From: a virus
IMG/VR virus record: IMGVR_UViG_3300037089_000073
Coordinates: 1-39,619 of that record
Direction: 5' to 3' (one strand)
DNA length: 39,619 bases
The notes beneath the pieces were generated by a model. It was not told the DNA's origin, did no database searches, and saw only the letters and a list, made by a program, of their open reading frames with translations. Shown in pieces: positions 750 to 39,619 of the stretch (its first letter is position 1; each line of letters begins with the position of its first letter). Made by a program: the position numbers and the translations under genes.

Positions 750-1203
750 ATCCAAGCCTCGTAAGCAGGCCCACACGCCCATGAAGTCAGCCACCAACCG
801 ACCCAAGTTGGCGATGGCATTGGCGGCTGCTGACCAGGTTGGTCTAGAAATGGCGTCCTCACAGTTCTCCATAGCAGTTAGGACGTTGAGTAGGTACCGA
901 GCTATCATCGCCCAAGGCAAAGACCCAGAGCTTGCAACTTTAGTCCAGTCATCTGCCACACAAGCGATAGAAGCCTCCAGGGATCTACTGAACCTCACCG
1001 TCGACGACTACCTGAGACGGATGCGAGAGCTTGCCCGAACGGCCACCCATGCCCAAGCCGCCCTCTTATTCGAGAAGCTCGCCGAGGTCATGCTTACGAG
1101 AGAGAGTCTAGCCAATGGACATGCTGAGCCGAATTCAATCTCGAATCAAACGGTTGCAGTCAATACAGGGCCGATATTCCAAATCCTCAAACCAGCAATT
1201 TGA
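739..1203 (+). CDS. terS: Terminase small subunit
   Basis: The product is 154 residues. It starts with a basic segment (KSKPRKQ), then a helix-turn-helix-like stretch at about residues 25-60, then two long helices (about 65-125) that would form the oligomerisation core. This is the usual plan for a phage small terminase, which recognises phage DNA and hands it to the large subunit. The call rests on this architecture and on position directly upstream of a clear terL, with an 89-base overlap, so it is a good inference and not a motif match. A second in-frame ATG at 781 is an alternative start. Confidence 0.7.
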   Translation: MPTKSKPRKQAHTPMKSATNRPKLAMALAAADQVGLEMASSQFSIAVRTLSRYRAIIAQGKDPELATLVQSSATQAIEASRDLLNLTVDDYLRRMRELARTATHAQAALLFEKLAEVMLTRESLANGHAEPNSISNQTVAVNTGPIFQILKPAI

Positions 1204-3598
1204 TACCGTCACCGTTGACTTCAGCTTACCGACCATCAAGCTAGTCCCGATCTTGTCCCCAGGGTTGTTGGAGCCAACCCACCTGGCACCCTACGGGGAT
1301 GTTCTTGATAGAGCAATCGAACGTTCCCGAGCTGGGTTCGAATCAGACCGGTTCGAGGTTCATGTACTAGCGGCACCACCCCAACATGGAAAAGCCCTAG
1401 CTGATGACACCCCCATCTTGACCAAGAGGGGTTGGATTACGGTTGGTAGTGTTCGAGTAGGGGACTACTTCGTTGGTTCTGATGGTGGGTGGACACAAGT
1501 CCTAGCAGTCTACCCTCAAGGAGAGATACAATTATACAAGGTTTCTTTCAGTAATGGGAAGTCAGCTCGCCGAAAGAAGATGGTAAACCCATACTTGGAG
1601 GCATGTGGGGATCATCTTTGGCAAGTGCATAACAGGTATTCTGGGCGTCCAACCATCAAAAATACCAAACAACTCAAAGGGGATCTGCGCGAGAGCGACA
1701 AACGAAACAAGTGGAGACTCCCCATTGTAGTCCCACTACAGAACTCTCATGCTGACCTACCCATCAACCCATACCTTCTTGGGTGTTGGCTTGGTGATGG
1801 CACTGCTTGCAATGGTAGTGTAACTACGATGGATGAGGAGATCATAAACTCATTCAGGGTAACCTATGACCAAGGCGCTTCAAATAACAAGCATACTGGT
1901 AGGGCAACCACTTACAACCTATTGGGACTTCACCACCAACTGAGGTTACTTGGGGTAAAAAGTAACAAGCACATACCCGACTTGTACTTGAATTCCTCGG
2001 TAGAACAGAGGCTAGCTCTACTCCAGGGGCTGTGCGACACCGATGGAACTGTTGCAAAGAATGGCTCGCAACAATCCTATTGTAGTACCAACCCCAAATT
2101 AGCAGAAGGTTTCAAGTACTTGGTCAGCTCTCTTGGGGGTATTTGGACTGAGACCATAAAGCCAGCTGCAGACAAGATAGCTTGGAATATCTGGTTCAGA
2201 TTGCCCCACGGTTTACCAGCATTCCGCCTACTCAGGAAACAAGATCTTCTCAACGAGGACTCCCCGAGGAATCAACCCAGACGGTTCCTGGAGAGCATCA
2301 AACCATCAAGGGTTGGTAGGGCTACTTGCTTCACAGTCGATGCCCCAGATAAGTTGTTCTGTGCTGGTAGGGATTTGATCCTTACTCACAATACCTTCTG
2401 TACCGAGCACGGGGTGGTCAAAGCTTTGGTGTCCCTCCCTGGGAAGGTTCATGCTTACGTCACCTACGCCCAAGCGGTTACCCGAAGGGTTCAAGCGGAG
2501 ACCCGTCGCATCTGTGAGACCATCGGCCTTCAAGGAGAATACTCCCAGGACTCATGGTGGTTCCCGGCTACTAAGTCAGGCATCATCTGGACAAGCGTCG
2601 AAGGCGCTCTGACATCTCATCCAGTCTCAGGCCTCCTGATAGTGGATGACCCCCTCAAAGATGTAGCACAAGCCCGTAGTCAGCTCGAGAGGGCCAAGAG
2701 GTGGGATTGGGTGAAGCAAGTAGCTACCAAGCGACTTCACCCTGGAGCCACCCTTGTTATCATGGCTACCAGGTGGGTTCCCCTCGATCCCTCCGGTATG
2801 GCCATTAAGGAATGGAAAGCTCCCTTCCTAAACATCCAGGCCATCTGTGAAGACCCCAGCACTGATCCCCTTCATCGAGGCTTAGGGGAGGCACTGTGGC
2901 CCATCCGTAGGCCACTCCAGTTCTTACTTCAGCAGAGGCAAGCTGACCCATTCGGCTTTAGGGCCCAGTTCCAAGGTGATCCTCAGGACTTGGGGACACA
3001 GCTTTTCAAGACCCCCGAACGGTTCGCCAAGGATCTACCCCCGCACAGTACCTTCATCGCAGGTTGGGGCATTGACCTTGCCTACACGAAGACCACCATC
3101 TCCGACTGGTCTGTCATGGTGTACGGCAAGCGGGTCAAGACCAAAGACGGGGACAAGCTCTACATCACAAGGGTTGTCAGGAAGCAAGTAGACGTCACCC
3201 ACTTCTTGGATACGATGGTTCTGGAGACGAAGCTCAAGCCAGCCGCCCTAAGGTTCTATTATGGAGGTGGCGGTGAGTCGGGGGTCAGCAGCTTCATCTC
3301 GAAGAAGGTCAGGAACTTCCACGCGATACAAGCCAAGGATGACAAGGTAACTCGTAGCCAGTCAGCTCGTGAGGCCTGGAACCTTGGAAACATAGTAGTC
3401 CCAGATCCGGACTCACCCCATTGGACTCAAGATCTGGAAGACTTCATCGAAGAGATCACACAATTCACGGGTACTGGTGATGTTCACGATGACTGTATAG
3501 ACGCACTTGCTGCACTCTATGATCAGCTCTATAAGGGACAACTCGATTGGTCAACTGTGAACCGCTGGCAAAGTCAGATAGGTGGGTTCAGGCTATAG
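1115..3598 (+). CDS. terL: Terminase large subunit interrupted by an intein
   Basis: The 827-residue precursor is the ATP-driven packaging motor and nuclease. After removal of the intein (residues 94-426) a 494-residue TerL remains, a normal length. The rejoined exteins restore the Walker A loop, reading PPQHGK then TFC. In precursor numbering, Walker B is LLIVDDP (Asp511, Asp512), the coupling motif is MATRW (550-554), and the RNase H-like nuclease has GIDLAYT (Asp654) and a C-terminal HDDCIDAL with Asp792, Asp793 and Asp796. The start at 1115 overlaps terS by 89 bases. No better start lies between the terS stop and the conserved region. The family assignment is firm. Confidence 0.95.
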   Translation: MDMLSRIQSRIKRLQSIQGRYSKSSNQQFDTVTVDFSLPTIKLVPILSPGLLEPTHLAPYGDVLDRAIERSRAGFESDRFEVHVLAAPPQHGKALADDTPILTKRGWITVGSVRVGDYFVGSDGGWTQVLAVYPQGEIQLYKVSFSNGKSARRKKMVNPYLEACGDHLWQVHNRYSGRPTIKNTKQLKGDLRESDKRNKWRLPIVVPLQNSHADLPINPYLLGCWLGDGTACNGSVTTMDEEIINSFRVTYDQGASNNKHTGRATTYNLLGLHHQLRLLGVKSNKHIPDLYLNSSVEQRLALLQGLCDTDGTVAKNGSQQSYCSTNPKLAEGFKYLVSSLGGIWTETIKPAADKIAWNIWFRLPHGLPAFRLLRKQDLLNEDSPRNQPRRFLESIKPSRVGRATCFTVDAPDKLFCAGRDLILTHNTFCTEHGVVKALVSLPGKVHAYVTYAQAVTRRVQAETRRICETIGLQGEYSQDSWWFPATKSGIIWTSVEGALTSHPVSGLLIVDDPLKDVAQARSQLERAKRWDWVKQVATKRLHPGATLVIMATRWVPLDPSGMAIKEWKAPFLNIQAICEDPSTDPLHRGLGEALWPIRRPLQFLLQQRQADPFGFRAQFQGDPQDLGTQLFKTPERFAKDLPPHSTFIAGWGIDLAYTKTTISDWSVMVYGKRVKTKDGDKLYITRVVRKQVDVTHFLDTMVLETKLKPAALRFYYGGGGESGVSSFISKKVRNFHAIQAKDDKVTRSQSAREAWNLGNIVVPDPDSPHWTQDLEDFIEEITQFTGTGDVHDDCIDALAALYDQLYKGQLDWSTVNRWQSQIGGFRL
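1394..2392 (+). other. Class 3 intein with LAGLIDADG homing endonuclease inside TerL
   Basis: The insert is 333 residues (94-426), placed exactly between Lys and Thr of Walker A. It begins with Ala (ALADDTPILTKRGW) and ends THN before a +1 Thr. It lacks an N-terminal Cys or Ser nucleophile. It has the W-C-T triplet that defines class 3 inteins: Trp169 in GDHLW, Cys405 in ATCFTVDAPD, and Thr424 in the final THN. In this class the internal Cys starts splicing by a branched intermediate. Two LAGLIDADG-type motifs, LLGCWLGDG (Asp228) and LLQGLCDTDG (Asp310), indicate an intact homing endonuclease. I see no frameshift or missing key residue, so it is probably active. Confidence 0.92.
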
Positions 3599-34180: not shown

Positions 34181-34762
34181 ATGAAAAACCTATTCATCCT
34201 GGCAATTACCCTCACCGCCTGTGGCTCACCCCAGGATGCACTCTCAGATGTAACTACAGGTGGTTCATCCGCTGTTACCATATCTGAGACGGGTGGGGAC
34301 TCGGTGACCCTCGAGACCACAGGTGGCGCTGACTCAGCTACGGGAGGTTCTGAGAGCCTCACCACAGGTGGCTCCAGTGCAGCTACCACAACGACTTGCC
34401 CCGCCGGTGCGTGCGTTACTGGAACCGGTGGAAGGGGTTCCACGGGTGGTTCACCTGGTACTGGCGGTGGCAAGGCTACCGGTGGCTCCAAAGCCCTGGC
34501 CACGGGAGGGTCGTCCTCCACGTGTCGTCCTGGTGACCTGGGCTGCCTCTGTGGAACGGGATCAACCTGCTACGGGTCTGGCCACTGCATCACGTCCACG
34601 ACCCCTCCCAGGTGCTGGGCAGTCAACTACACAGACCCGACCCAAGTTGGGAACGCCGGCTTCGCTTGTGATACCACATGCATGATCGGCCAGACCCCTC
34701 CATGTGCTTCGTGTAATTACGCGAGCCTGACTTGTTCAGGCGGGATCTGTGTGAGCAAATAA
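34181..34762 (+). CDS. Surface lipoprotein with TGGS repeats and Cys-rich C-terminus
   Basis: The signal is short: MKNLFILAITLTAC, with lipobox Leu-Thr-Ala-Cys and Cys14 as lipid site. Residues 25-110 are low-complexity Thr-Gly-Gly-Ser repeats (TTGGSSAV, TTGGADSATGG, ATGGSKALATGG). Residues 115-193 have a dozen Cys in the spacing of small disulphide-bonded domains (CRPGDLGCLCGTGSTC and following). This architecture is familiar from exported proteins of Myxococcota. It stands alone, preceded by a possible operator, so it may be a lysogenic-conversion gene (for example superinfection exclusion). The function is inferred. Confidence 0.78.
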   Translation: MKNLFILAITLTACGSPQDALSDVTTGGSSAVTISETGGDSVTLETTGGADSATGGSESLTTGGSSAATTTTCPAGACVTGTGGRGSTGGSPGTGGGKATGGSKALATGGSSSTCRPGDLGCLCGTGSTCYGSGHCITSTTPPRCWAVNYTDPTQVGNAGFACDTTCMIGQTPPCASCNYASLTCSGGICVSK

Positions 34763-34811: not shown

Positions 34812-34979
34812 ATGAAGCATCAAATAGTCCCTGAGTTACAATTGATTACCGCCGAGCTCCGAATCGCAGTACAGGTTCTCCGCGTTATGCGAGCCCAGCT
34901 CGAAGTCATCAGAGCCCTACAAAAGATGACTCCCACCGACCAAGCACCATTGCAGATCGGTGGGAGTGTTACCCTTTAG
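34812..34979 (+). CDS. Hypothetical helical protein, 55 aa
   Basis: ATG 34812 is chosen because AAAGGAG (34797-34803) lies eight bases upstream; an ATG at 34782 would read ten residues through it. The product is a single long amphipathic helix (LQLITAELRIAVQVLRVMRAQLEVIRALQ) with a short polar end. It is too short for a firm call; oligomerisation or an anti-regulator role is possible. Confidence 0.5.
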   Translation: MKHQIVPELQLITAELRIAVQVLRVMRAQLEVIRALQKMTPTDQAPLQIGGSVTL

Positions 34980-34990
34980 GAGAGATTCGT

Positions 34991-35236
34991 ATGGGAGATA
35001 CACCGAAGCCTTGGACGCCACCCAACCTCGAGTACATGATCAGCCCAGTGACCAAACTGGATGAAGCCATCCGGGAGTTCGAAGTCCTGGTAGCCAACAT
35101 GAGACTCAAGGAACGCCTAGGGGATGAGATGGACGGTTGCTACTCCCACTACCGGAACGCCTTCCAGGGAGCCTTGGAGGAGGGTTTGGAGCTACCCGAA
35201 CGCTTTGACCCTGACACGGTCATCCCAGGAGTGTAA
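34991..35236 (+). CDS. Hypothetical protein, 81 aa
   Basis: A clear ribosome-binding site (TAGGAGAGA) precedes ATG 34991. The acidic product is helical (KLDEAIREFEVLVANMRLKERL, then YRNAFQGALEEGLEL). No family recognised. A strong hairpin follows its stop, marking the end of a transcription unit. Confidence 0.55.
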   Translation: MGDTPKPWTPPNLEYMISPVTKLDEAIREFEVLVANMRLKERLGDEMDGCYSHYRNAFQGALEEGLELPERFDPDTVIPGV

Positions 35237-35242
35237 ATAGAA

Positions 35243-35274
35243 CTCAAGCCAGGGGGATGACTCCCTGGCTTGAG
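35243..35274 (+). terminator. Twelve-base-pair hairpin after the 34991 gene
   Basis: CTCAAGCCAGGG (35243-35254) pairs perfectly with CCCTGGCTTGAG (35263-35274) around an eight-base loop. No T run follows, but the stem is strong and lies seven bases after a stop codon, so it is a likely terminator or mRNA end. Confidence 0.65.
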
Positions 35275-35306
35275 CAACCAGTTTCCAATTAGTGGAGGCA
35301 TTACGA

Positions 35307-35807
35307 GTGCCTATCCAGACCGAACGAGTACTTAATACACCGGTGAGGGTTCGAGGTCAACTTCGAATAGTTCCGACCCGAGAGAGTACTCTCTCAAAGA
35401 GGGTCAAGTGGTGGCTCCGACGATCCCTCACTCTCACCCGGAAGACACCCTGGCTCCAGCTCCTGAGGCACCACGAGAGATGGCTTCGACTCAAGCCTAG
35501 GGTCAAGGCCCTCTTGGGTTCCAGAGAGTATCTGAAGGCCCTCTACGCTGGCCAACCATGGAAGCGATTCAAGCTCTTGTACCAAAGAGCTTGGGAGAAG
35601 AATACGGTCAATGGTCAGGCTTCCCTCTTCCTCCGGAAGCTTCGTTACAAGAGGACTCCTACAGGGAAGACTAAGACCAAAGAAGCCAAGGCTCGTCATC
35701 GAGCTCGTCATCGAGCTAAGGTACTTGAAGCCTACCAATCAACCATAGGCCGGTCAATCGTTCAGTCCCCTATTAATCAGGATCTTTTAACCAAGAAGGG
35801 GATCTAA
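35307..35807 (+). CDS. Highly basic protein, 166 aa
   Basis: GTG 35307 is chosen because GGAGG (35294-35298) lies eight bases upstream; another GTG at 35292 would overlap it. The product is extremely rich in Arg, Lys, Trp and Leu, with helical segments (RVKWWLRRSLTLT, WKRFKLLYQRAWEKN), and a direct repeat Arg-His-Arg-Ala-Arg-His-Arg-Ala in its C-terminal part. It should bind nucleic acids or be a structural nucleoid-type protein; no catalytic motif is seen. It directly precedes the noncoding repeat region, so a role in replication or DNA organisation there is a reasonable guess. Confidence 0.55.
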   Translation: MPIQTERVLNTPVRVRGQLRIVPTRESTLSKRVKWWLRRSLTLTRKTPWLQLLRHHERWLRLKPRVKALLGSREYLKALYAGQPWKRFKLLYQRAWEKNTVNGQASLFLRKLRYKRTPTGKTKTKEAKARHRARHRAKVLEAYQSTIGRSIVQSPINQDLLTKKGI

Positions 35808-35944
35808 TTTCTAGGGTTATAAACACGTCCCCCGCAGCCCATTGGCCGATAGGTAATTTGTCTATCCACATCTGATTGACCGGTCTATATTGATTGACCA
35901 TTCGGACGTGGAGGGACGTGTTTATCTCTGTCGGATGGACGTCC
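35750..35944. repeat. Repeat cluster, candidate replication origin or regulatory array
   Basis: TGATTGACC occurs at 35873-35881 and 35891-35899 (18-base period), and its inverse CCGGTCAATC at 35750-35759 mirrors GATTGACCGG at 35874-35883. ATAAACACGTCCC (35819-35831) is perfectly inverted at 35913-35925. GGACGT recurs at 35904, 35914 and 35937, the first two one helical turn apart, the last within the palindrome GGACGTCC. No gene covers 35808-36121. Repeats of this density suit initiator binding. I see no obvious AT-rich unwinding element or known initiator, so the origin call is tentative. Confidence 0.5.
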
Positions 35945-36002
35945 CCCTACGGCCCGAGACCCAGAGGAAGAGGGATCGAGAACCCGGTGTAACAGAGTGA
36001 GT

Positions 36003-36114
36003 ACCTCTAGGTCAGCTCAGAATGCTTCGATGACTACAATTCAAATGATCCAATCCTCGAAAGAGGATTGGTCAGTACCGTCTTCGAGAGACTTGTCTGA
36101 GTTGACCTAGAGGT
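36003..36114 (+). ncRNA. Structured leader RNA upstream of the 36122 gene
   Basis: ACCTCTAGGTCAGCTCAG (36003-36020) pairs with CTGAGTTGACCTAGAGGT (36097-36114) over all 18 positions, one being G-U; A36021 and T36096 add a nineteenth. Inside, CCAATCCTC (36050-36058) and GAGGATTGG (36063-36071) form a nine-pair hairpin with a GAAA tetraloop, extended by TGA/TCA beyond one bulged T. The right outer arm contains AGAGGT, the best ribosome-binding site for ATG 36122, and the left arm contains ACCTCT opposite to it. The fold would hide the start of translation. Whether it is a cis leader or a free RNA cannot be told here. Confidence 0.7.
36030..36110 (+). CDS. Possible leader peptide, 26 aa
   Basis: ATG 36030 opens a 26-codon frame (MTTIQMIQSSKEDW at the start) that stops at TAG 36108-36110, inside the right arm of the outer stem. 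A ribosome reaching its end would open that stem next to the ribosome-binding site of the following gene. An even shorter frame (ATG 36022, stop 36031-36033) overlaps its start. No good ribosome-binding site precedes it, so it is a speculative candidate. Confidence 0.3.
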   Translation: MTTIQMIQSSKEDWSVPSSRDLSELT

Positions 36115-36121
36115 TCAAAGG

Positions 36122-36496
36122 ATGCCCCTACCCAAAGTGGATGGAACCCTCATGGGTTCGAGTCTCTACTCCTCTCTCCATGAGTATGGAACCTCTGCGA
36201 GAAATGGGAAGTACATAGTCCATAAGGACTTCAAAGAGGTAACCCTCCACGGTGTCACAATTCTTGTGAGGAATGTTCACGATGGTGACCCCTATCCACA
36301 AGGACATGATGAATTAGAGTTCGTCAATTGGTTGTTCCCGATTATGACGAACAAAGAAGCCCATGATCTTGTGAACCAATTTATTGGGCACGAAGTGGAT
36401 ATGACTCTCGTTGGGGATATGGCTCGAACTCTCTGTCGGATGAGGATGATCCCTCCTACGAGGTTCGAACGGATTCTTTCTGAGGACATCCTCTGA
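36122..36496 (+). CDS. Hypothetical protein, 124 aa
   Basis: First gene of the rightmost operon. It has beta elements (KYIVHKDFKEVTLHGVTILVRNVH) then helices (ELEFVNWLFPIMTNKEAHDLVNQFIG, MARTLCRMRM). No signal, no membrane segment, no family recognised. Its ribosome-binding site AGAGGT (36109-36114) is inside a 19-pair RNA stem, suggesting translational control. It leads the sigma-like regulator genes, so it may itself be regulatory. Confidence 0.6.
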   Translation: MPLPKVDGTLMGSSLYSSLHEYGTSARNGKYIVHKDFKEVTLHGVTILVRNVHDGDPYPQGHDELEFVNWLFPIMTNKEAHDLVNQFIGHEVDMTLVGDMARTLCRMRMIPPTRFERILSEDIL

Positions 36497-36524
36497 CCTG
36501 GTGTAGGTGGGCCCGGGAACTCTT

Positions 36525-37187
36525 ATGGGTTACCACCCTATACCCTTCCACGAGCTCGAGAGCCTCATCCCCTCACCGGAACCCGATGATGGTCTCCGAA
36601 GCCTTCACGACCTCCTGGAGCGGTATGATTGGGAGAAGGATGTCAAGCCCCTCTTGGAGTTGATCCCTCCTTACGTCGCCGATGTACTAGATATGTTCCG
36701 CCTAGGGAAAGGGCAGGTAGCCATCGGAGAGATCTTCGATTACAGCCAAGCCAATATCTCGTATACGAGGCGATACGCAATCAAACGTTTGGTTTGGCTT
36801 CTTACTCGACCCAAGTTCACGGATGAGGAGATCCGTGAGTTAGTGGAGCCTTACACAGTGGAAACCACCCTCAATGTGTACTATGTAGCCAATTACACTC
36901 AGAAGCCTATTCGTAAGTACGAGGTTACACCTGTTTCAAAAAAGGAACAGATTGAGATTATGGTTCTGATCTACAAGAACCCCAACACATCACGCTGTGG
37001 TAGGACGCTTCAGCGTAGATCCCCTACAGTTCGAGCATACTTTAAGAAGGTAATTTTTCGAATGCTGAGTGATCCCCAACCCTCCCCAGGTGCTGACTTA
37101 CTCCGAAAGCACTTCTACAAGGTCATTGTGAACAAGGAGTATCGGATACTTGACCACCTGATCCGTAAGTCTCACCGGTGTACTTAG
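36525..37187 (+). CDS. Sigma-region-4-like transcription regulator, copy 1
   Basis: ATG 36525 is chosen over the GTG at 36507 because the latter lacks a well-spaced site. The 220-residue product has an N-terminal acidic part, then at about 35-90 a helix-turn-helix of sigma-70 region 4 / ArpU style: VKPLLELIPPYVADVLDMF, GKGQVAIGEIFDYSQANISYT, RRYAIKRLVWLLTRPKF. The C-terminal half has SPTVRAYFKKVIFRML. It is a full-length paralogue of the 37882 product, whose equivalents are VVPLLDSLPPRIADIVEL, SQSAICYI and TTVRKIFHNSIEVLRE. It may drive late transcription by binding promoters or RNA polymerase. Confidence 0.65.
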   Translation: MGYHPIPFHELESLIPSPEPDDGLRSLHDLLERYDWEKDVKPLLELIPPYVADVLDMFRLGKGQVAIGEIFDYSQANISYTRRYAIKRLVWLLTRPKFTDEEIRELVEPYTVETTLNVYYVANYTQKPIRKYEVTPVSKKEQIEIMVLIYKNPNTSRCGRTLQRRSPTVRAYFKKVIFRMLSDPQPSPGADLLRKHFYKVIVNKEYRILDHLIRKSHRCT

Positions 37188-37881: not shown

Positions 37882-38877
37882 ATGCGTATAGCTGGACTTG
37901 TAGGTTTAGAGAAGCAGATCTCGCACAAGTCCTCTCAGATTGAGATCAGTTGGCATAACTCCCACTTCTTTCAGTTTCTTGAGGACTCCGAGCGCATCCC
38001 ATTAACAGCCCAGGTTCCATTCAGGGATCCATTCGATGATCCTGAAGAGGAACCTGAGTACCAACCTCGGTTCAATTGGGATCGTGATGTGGTTCCCCTA
38101 CTGGACTCCCTCCCTCCACGTATAGCCGATATCGTAGAGCTCCGTCACCAAGGGGTGGGCGAGTATATCATCGCCAATATGTTCGAGGTGTCACAGTCTG
38201 CCATCTGTTACATCCTACAAAGGGCTCACGAGAGGCTTCGGTTCCTCTACAATCGTCCAAAATACACAGACGAACAACTAGAGAGGCTCCTCTCTCTGTG
38301 TCTTACCGCACCTAAAGTAATAAGACTAATGATCAAGCTCTGGAATGACCCCAATCAAACCAAAGCCGTGGGTGAGGAATTCCAAACACAGACTACAGTG
38401 CGCAAGATCTTCCACAACTCTATTGAGGTACTGAGAGAATCATGCCAAGCCTTCCCGGAAATCCTGCCTATCTACCTACACTTTAAGAACGTGAAGGATA
38501 ACAAGCTCTACAGTATACTAGTAAATCCAACACATAGCCTGGAGCACAATTCGATGATACGGAAAACTGTGTTGGAAAATAGGAGCCTAACAGCTGAGGA
38601 GAGGGCAGCCAAGGTAGAGGAGAGGCAAGCCAAAGCCGCTCATGCGCAGAGAGTGAAGCGATTGGCAGCGGCGCGTCTCCGGCGCGCTGCCAAGAAGAAG
38701 GCCTGGGAAATTGAGTATAGAGAAAAGAATGAAGCTAGAAAAGCACAAGAAGCTGCGAAAGAGCAAGCTACTCGTGAGAAGATCCAAGAGCGACTTGCCA
38801 AAGCCGCTGATAGAAGAAAAGCCCTTCAAGATGCCTTAGTGGAGGAGATGGTAAACCATCGTGACCAAGTGGACTAA
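37882..38877 (+). CDS. Sigma-region-4-like transcription regulator, copy 2
   Basis: The 331-residue product shares the helix-turn-helix region (FNWDRDVVPLLDSLPPRIAD, VGEYIIANMFEVSQSAICYI, LRFLYNRPKYTDEQLERL) and following half with the 36525 product. It adds a long C-terminal helix of about 90 residues, strongly charged (RSLTAEERAAKVEERQAKAA, AARLRRAAKKKAWEIEY) and probably a coiled coil or a nucleic-acid-binding helix. A longer version with a basic tail next to a shorter one suggests divergence after duplication. Function in transcription is inferred from the region-4-like core. Confidence 0.65.
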   Translation: MRIAGLVGLEKQISHKSSQIEISWHNSHFFQFLEDSERIPLTAQVPFRDPFDDPEEEPEYQPRFNWDRDVVPLLDSLPPRIADIVELRHQGVGEYIIANMFEVSQSAICYILQRAHERLRFLYNRPKYTDEQLERLLSLCLTAPKVIRLMIKLWNDPNQTKAVGEEFQTQTTVRKIFHNSIEVLRESCQAFPEILPIYLHFKNVKDNKLYSILVNPTHSLEHNSMIRKTVLENRSLTAEERAAKVEERQAKAAHAQRVKRLAAARLRRAAKKKAWEIEYREKNEARKAQEAAKEQATREKIQERLAKAADRRKALQDALVEEMVNHRDQVD

Positions 38878-39089: not shown

Positions 39090-39493
39090 TGCCCGGGCTG
39101 CACTACCTGTCTCACTCATTCAGCATGGGTGAGTCTCTTACCGAGGGGCGAGATCAGTGGCTTGATTATACGGAACAACTGGGCGTCGACCTATCCAGGT
39201 ACATTGGTGCACCTGGTAACACAGGGACTCTGGCTTCAATCAGAGCAGCCCTCCGTGATGCCCTCCCCCCAGAGGCTGTTATTGACGTCAAGCTCGACGA
39301 GCTTACTCAAGTGATTACCATTCAAGTGGCGGCTGCTGAAGTACCCAACCTTGATCACAGGCTGATGGTTGCCATCGATAAGGTTGTACCTGCTTCCATC
39401 ACCACTGAGGTCAAGGACGGCCGGATCAGGATCGGACGAGAGATAACACGACCTCAGTACCCAACAAGGTTTGAAAGGGAGCCGGTGATATGA
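39089..39493 (+). CDS. Hypothetical protein, 134 aa
   Basis: ATG 39089 overlaps the preceding TGA. The N-terminus is helical and polar (SLTEGRDQWLDYTEQLGVDL), then a segment with ASIRAALRDALPPEAVIDVKLDEL and beta strands (VITIQVAAAEVP, VPASITTEVKDGRIRIGRE). It looks like a small alpha/beta protein. Its end is repeated at 1-42, and its stop overlaps the gene at 39490. No family recognised. Confidence 0.6.
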   Translation: MPGLHYLSHSFSMGESLTEGRDQWLDYTEQLGVDLSRYIGAPGNTGTLASIRAALRDALPPEAVIDVKLDELTQVITIQVAAAEVPNLDHRLMVAIDKVVPASITTEVKDGRIRIGREITRPQYPTRFEREPVI

Positions 39494-39619
39494 CACCTGA
39501 AGAACAAGCCCTAGCTGATCGCGTCACCCTTGAGAGGCAAACGAATAACTCCTTTTTCACAGACAGACTGAAAAAGGGTGTGCTCGCCTACTTGGCGACA
39601 CAGGGTAATCGTAGGGGTA
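39452..39619. repeat. Right copy of the terminal overlap
   Basis: It repeats bases 1-168 with one difference. Removing either copy leaves a 39,451-bp circle with continuous genes across the junction. Confidence 0.95.
39490..39619 (+). CDS. 5' part of the gene at 39-215, second copy
   Basis: This copy begins at the ATGA overlap and runs off the window end. It is identical to 39-168 except for G39578 (Gly) in place of A127 (Asp). It is the same gene seen twice through circular closure. Confidence 0.9.
   Translation, partial: MTPEEQALADRVTLERQTNNSFFTDRLKKGVLAYLATQGNRRG

Follow-up and report, generated by a model that had tools for sequence, protein, structure and literature searches.

The gene at 36122 of this IMG/VR virus record (39,619 bases, analysed over its full length and called the window below) is preceded by a leader RNA predicted to fold into a long hairpin that buries the ribosome-binding site of the gene. 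This ribosome-binding-site hairpin is real, exactly placed, ordinary in kind and new in sequence. We propose, with a confidence somewhat short of even, that it works in cis on the mRNA: transcripts carrying both arms of the stem would be silent for 36122, and RNAs lacking the left arm would be translated. Coordinates of the leader elements and of the neighbouring genes are given in Table 1.

Table 1. Positions of the leader elements, the second inverted repeat, the operon genes and the end repeat in the window
Feature	Position	Strand	Remark
Direct terminal repeat, 168 bp	1-168 and 39452-39619		One mismatch, position 127
Second large inverted repeat, ATAAACACGTCCC / GGGACGTGTTTAT, in the same intergenic region upstream	35819..35925		13 perfect pairs plus inner helices
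Open frame from GTG 35997 / ATG 36030 to TAG, spanning the hairpin	35997..36110	+	Translation not supported
Outer stem, left (5') arm ACCTCTAGGTCAGCTCAGA	36003..36021	+	First six bases, ACCTCT, pair with the Shine-Dalgarno
Middle helices with internal loops	36025..36090	+	Alone: z -4.1 (+ strand), -2.9 (- strand)
Inner hairpin CCAATCCTC-GAAA-GAGGATTGG, nine pairs	36050..36071	+	z -4.7 for 36046-36072
Outer stem, right (3') arm TCTGAGTTGACCTAGAGGT	36096..36114	+	
Shine-Dalgarno AGAGGT of the 36122 gene, within the right arm	36109..36114	+	Anti-SD duplex -6.5 kcal/mol
First operon gene, 124 aa, no known relative	36122..36496	+	
Sigma-region-4-like protein, paralog of the 37882 product	36507..37187	+	ATG 36525 likelier start
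Sigma-region-4-like protein	37882..38877	+	Sigma70_r4 E 4e-5, just under the Pfam cut-off

The sequence-only reading had described a compact fold of about 112 bases, built from a 19-pair outer stem and an inner nine-pair hairpin with a GAAA loop. These elements were all recovered: the fold spans 36003-36114 with matching coordinates and pairing, the outer stem joins 36003-36021 to 36096-36114 with a single G-U pair, and the inner hairpin was present in the MFE and centroid structures, which concur. At the DNA level, the element is an almost perfect inverted repeat.

The stability of the leader was evaluated against dinucleotide shuffles. The leader MFE was -59.1 kcal/mol, compared with -30.1 ± 3.9 kcal/mol for the shuffles, none of which came near it, and the z score of the fold ranged from -7.5 to -8.2. 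The fold energy was -59.0 kcal/mol on the + strand and -52.3 kcal/mol on the - strand, which fits the expectation for an RNA made from the + strand. In addition, the interior (36022-36095) taken alone outfolded its own shuffles, more so on the + strand (z -3.7) than on the - strand (z -2.4), indicating that the structure does not come from the outer inverted repeat alone. Among 120-base stretches of the + strand, the one starting at 36001 ranked second in stability despite its low G+C; the most stable stretch, at 34391, has a G+C content of 81/120. The 19-pair stem is also the longest in the window, and the maximum stem in order-1 Markov windows of the same composition (n = 40) did not exceed 17 pairs. 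A survey of real related DNA (2.63 Mb) yielded 13 stems with a length of 19 pairs or more, corresponding to ~0.2 per window by length alone, and the long-span stems inspected there overlap open reading frames, apparently within coding sequence. Stem length alone is thus uncommon but not impossible, and it is the location on the Shine-Dalgarno that makes chance unlikely.

The claim that the leader hides the ribosome-binding site of 36122 was borne out in folding predictions, in which the Shine-Dalgarno had a pairing probability of ~1.0 in the full leader. In an RNA covering 35808-36200, its bases were again paired at ~1.0, with 0.89 for the last base. The cost of opening the start at 36122 was 18.6 kcal/mol, the highest among 44 likely starts in the window. 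When the upstream bases were shuffled with the Shine-Dalgarno and the coding part fixed, none of 400 sequences reached this cost (mean 8.1, maximum 17.9 kcal/mol). The outer stem by itself contributes ~-34.6 kcal/mol and is therefore too stable for unaided melting. It is very unlikely that translation instead begins at the in-frame ATG 36152, which would leave the hairpin upstream of the real ribosome-binding site: the GATGGA preceding this codon pairs with the anti-SD at -5.5 kcal/mol, but the Shine-Dalgarno of ATG 36122 is better (-6.5 kcal/mol) and normally spaced, and ATG 36152 itself sits in a hairpin loop closed by six pairs. Separately, GAACCTCT within the coding region (36189..36196, + strand) is a perfect complement of the Shine-Dalgarno stretch AGAGGTTC (36109-36116), and could be a second pairing partner of that stretch.

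The effect of losing the left arm was examined by simulating truncated RNAs. With 5' ends no further than 36003, opening costs remained at 15-20 kcal/mol; they fell to ~13-14 kcal/mol at 36006 and 8-11 kcal/mol at 36009, and were ~4-7 kcal/mol for 5' ends from 36012 to 36106; this last range likewise held for 5' ends at 36100-36106, which mimic cleavage of the stem. An RNA lacking the 5' arm is accordingly predicted to expose the start site, with a change from ~19 to ~5 kcal/mol. Computation shows, at the level of modelled RNA, the fold, the burial of the Shine-Dalgarno and its release for 5' ends past ~36012. In the proposed switch, a transcript arriving from upstream would carry both arms and keep 36122, the first gene of the operon, untranslated, and transcription starting between ~36012 and 36095 would yield an RNA without the left arm from which 36122 is translated. 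Alternatively, a double-strand-specific nuclease such as RNase III might cut the stem and permit translation. Transcripts from upstream presumably exist, the left arm would be lost through an internal start or a cut, and the purpose may be to time the sigma-like regulators.

The + strand showed no intrinsic terminator in the interval from the co-directional gene upstream to 36122, which makes read-through RNA plausible. The leader hairpin was itself considered as an intrinsic terminator and rejected; its stem is followed by TTCAAAGG instead of a T run, and the + strand search was negative. A sigma-70 promoter scan of 34900-36600 returned no hit, against 1.1 expected by chance, and promoters of phage sigma factors are not recognisable by such a scan. 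The sole -10-like hexamer between the arms, TACAAT at 36035, has no -35 element, and hexamers of this kind are common (75 on the + strand).

The leader had been called novel, and this holds for its sequence but not for the device, since hairpins that bury a ribosome-binding site are established in phages (PMC3014915, PMC2988022, PMC5371410). For T4 e, soc, 49 and I-TevI, late promoters yield transcripts without the 5' strand (PMC3014915, PMC2988022). As in these genes and in Aeh1 mobE, a stable helix is predicted here to bury the Shine-Dalgarno on long phage transcripts, and, as in the T4 e and I-TevI kind, a missing 5' arm is predicted to release the site. In contrast to T4 e, I-TevI and Aeh1 mobE, no late promoter was identified between the arms, and the leader is far longer, with 112 bases, a 19-pair stem and a large structured loop. 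It also has no sequence relation to those leaders, and the gene that follows is unrelated to theirs.

The leaders of lambda cIII and E. coli adhE are opened by RNase III (PMC5371410). The present leader resembles them in its occluded ribosome-binding site, and its predicted fold is a plausible substrate for the enzyme. RNase III also opens the leader of lambda N. Compared with the cIII and adhE leaders, the longest unbroken stem here has 19 pairs, and cleavage is a candidate step. This length is slightly below the 22 nt quoted as the minimum RNase III target (PMC5371410) and counts against opening by that enzyme.

A further route had been suggested by a 26-codon frame (36030-36110), the translation of which might open the stem as in translational attenuation. 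The frame exists, with TAG at 36108-36110 as its stop, but belongs to a longer 37-codon frame that begins at GTG 35997. The attenuation model was not supported for the 36030 frame, which has a weak start and a poor codon score and lies 3' of the left arm. Its ATG shows almost no anti-SD pairing (-2.2 kcal/mol), and its codons do not score like those of a gene (P(null) 0.25, P(true gene) 0.06). Because the frame begins only after the left arm, a ribosome translating it cannot release the site in the manner of erm: a simulated ribosome initiating at ATG 36030 left an opening cost of 15.0 kcal/mol, and one in mid-frame (36060-36090) left 18.7 kcal/mol. A short frame ahead of a buried downstream ribosome-binding site does recall erm-type attenuators. 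In contrast to these, the frame starts past the left arm from a weak start, the ladder of alternative pairings is absent, and inducer-dependent stalling is not indicated; the combination that marks an erm-type attenuator, a translated leader peptide with a ribosome over the left arm, was not found for the 36030 frame.

Leader translation might still open the stem in another form, in which a ribosome initiating at GTG 35997 covers the left arm, or a ribosome that stops at TAG 36108-36110 unfolds the right arm and then restarts at ATG 36122, 11 bases further on. According to the simulations, leader translation would open the site only by initiation at GTG 35997 or by arrival of a ribosome at the stop codon. 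With a ribosome at 35997, opening the site cost 5.0 instead of 18.7 kcal/mol, the frame 35997-36110 terminates within the Shine-Dalgarno, and the GGTG ahead of 35997 pairs at -5.6 kcal/mol with an extended anti-SD. We nevertheless regard this explanation as unlikely: both starts are weak (-2.2 kcal/mol for 36030, and -3.0 kcal/mol for 35997 with the core anti-SD), codon use does not resemble that of genes (P(true gene) 0.04-0.06), an open run of 36 codons is unremarkable, and erm-type stalling on the ATG 36030 frame, which starts downstream of the left arm, keeps the stem closed.

The near-perfect symmetry of the arms also raises the question of function in the DNA. The arms, each containing ACCTNNAGGT, could be paired sites for a phage DNA-binding protein, perhaps one of the two sigma-like proteins, with the RNA fold as a by-product. 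The near-palindrome ACCTNNAGGT occurs in both arms and has one further copy in the window, and a second large inverted repeat located 77 bases upstream (35819-35925) folds equally on both strands (z ~-5.5 on the + strand and -5.1 on the - strand). Moreover, a search with the arm pattern matched one unrelated virus (listed twice, as L166 and L167) that carries the same 12-mers, inverted and 117 bp apart, and a scrambled control gave 0 matches. This match and the second inverted repeat keep the DNA-level reading alive. The sole imperfection in the arms, however, is a G-U that preserves the RNA pair on the + strand, and the interior too outfolds its shuffles. The copy in the other virus lies within a CTACGTCCT-type repeat and covers no Shine-Dalgarno; its interior differs from that of the leader, and no protein is common to the two. 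With a chance expectation of roughly 0.1, a single independent match is not far above chance, and it is probably a coincidence. A function in the DNA would also leave unexplained why the stem ends exactly at the Shine-Dalgarno, and we consider it improbable. The inverted repeat in the matching virus (L166:688-820) is a perfect one of 20 bp with CCTCTAGGTCAG, measures 117 bp across and adjoins the CTACGTCCT-type repeat. In the window, GATTGACC repeats occur inside the inverted repeat at 35819-35925.

A simpler possibility is that the structure is static, and that this 5' hairpin stabilises the mRNA or holds 36122 translation low with no switching. The very stable stem near the operon start is consistent with such a role, and no ligand, promoter or leader peptide was identified. 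A stem of 34.6 kcal/mol nevertheless far exceeds what tuning needs and would silence the first gene almost wholly, so that we give this explanation little credence and prefer the switch that depends on loss of the left arm.

As the sequence-only reading had suspected, the leader is not a known riboswitch: Rfam 15 contained no match at the gathering score among riboswitches, thermometers or leaders. A weak match to RF01359 (CRISPR-DR46; 25.1 bits, E 0.098) raised the idea that 36039-36075 gives a CRISPR-repeat mimic (Racr). The score is half of the gathering score (50), several mismatches are present where the SRU method requires a CRISPR repeat to be matched at 90% identity or more, and the candidate is part of a larger fold at a ribosome-binding site. 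We judge a Racr extremely improbable. The leader could also represent a new class of phage switch RNA, in which a folded core (the middle helices and the GAAA hairpin, with the second, upstream hairpin flanking) would be recognised by a phage protein, perhaps one of the sigma-like paralogs downstream, and would time translation of the operon leading into the late genes; we hold this to be highly unlikely.

Relatives of the leader and its operon were sought in several collections. No relatives of the 36122 and 36507 products were found among phages by tblastn, a phage blastn search returned no relative of the operon or leader, and IMG/VR searches with the 36122, 36507 and 37882 products and the terminase found none. 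The 37882 product gave a single weak match, in a huge phage. A leader covariance model gave no match across 2.0 Mb of related loci (best outside match E 0.66), an IMG/VR search for the core of the nine-pair hairpin was negative, and leader blastn against plasmids and phages gave short chance matches only. The closest relatives of the major head protein, Myxococcus phage Mx4 and a few uncultured viruses, share ~34-36% identity, and relatives of the head protein do not exceed ~36% over most of its length. The sigma-like operon protein was absent from the head-protein relatives searched, and the leader was not found at the related head-gene loci.

The leader does stand at the head of an operon with sigma-like regulators, in agreement with the original description, since two sigma-region-4-like paralogs are encoded there. 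The 36507 and 37882 products are paralogs by BLASTP (E 1e-20), and the 36507 product resembles sigma region 4 weakly (E 0.1). For the 36122 and 36507 products, structures modelled from single sequences were not good enough to use. One of the two paralogs has a long charged C-terminal part, and a collagen-like protein is encoded between them.

The last 168 bases of the record equal the first 168 with one mismatch, and the record is therefore probably a complete, circularly mapping genome of ~39.45 kb. It contains Mu-type portal, protease, major head, sheath and baseplate genes, and nearly all genes run in the same direction. If the record ends are joined, the 36122 operon runs into the terminase and head genes, and a timing role for the operon would therefore be reasonable. 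If the proposed switch is true, a contractile-tailed orphan phage that is distant from T4 and lambda shares their device of burying a ribosome-binding site, here to time an operon with two sigma-like regulators, which would be further evidence for the repeated origin of such hairpins. The leader hairpin opens no new question by itself.

The terminase (1115-3598, 827 aa) also matches primase and DnaC-like helicase-loader families in its N-terminal third. In addition, a strong hairpin of 12-13 pairs with a T-rich tail on the - strand, resembling a terminator, lies at 35243-35274 between 34991-35236 and 35292-35807.
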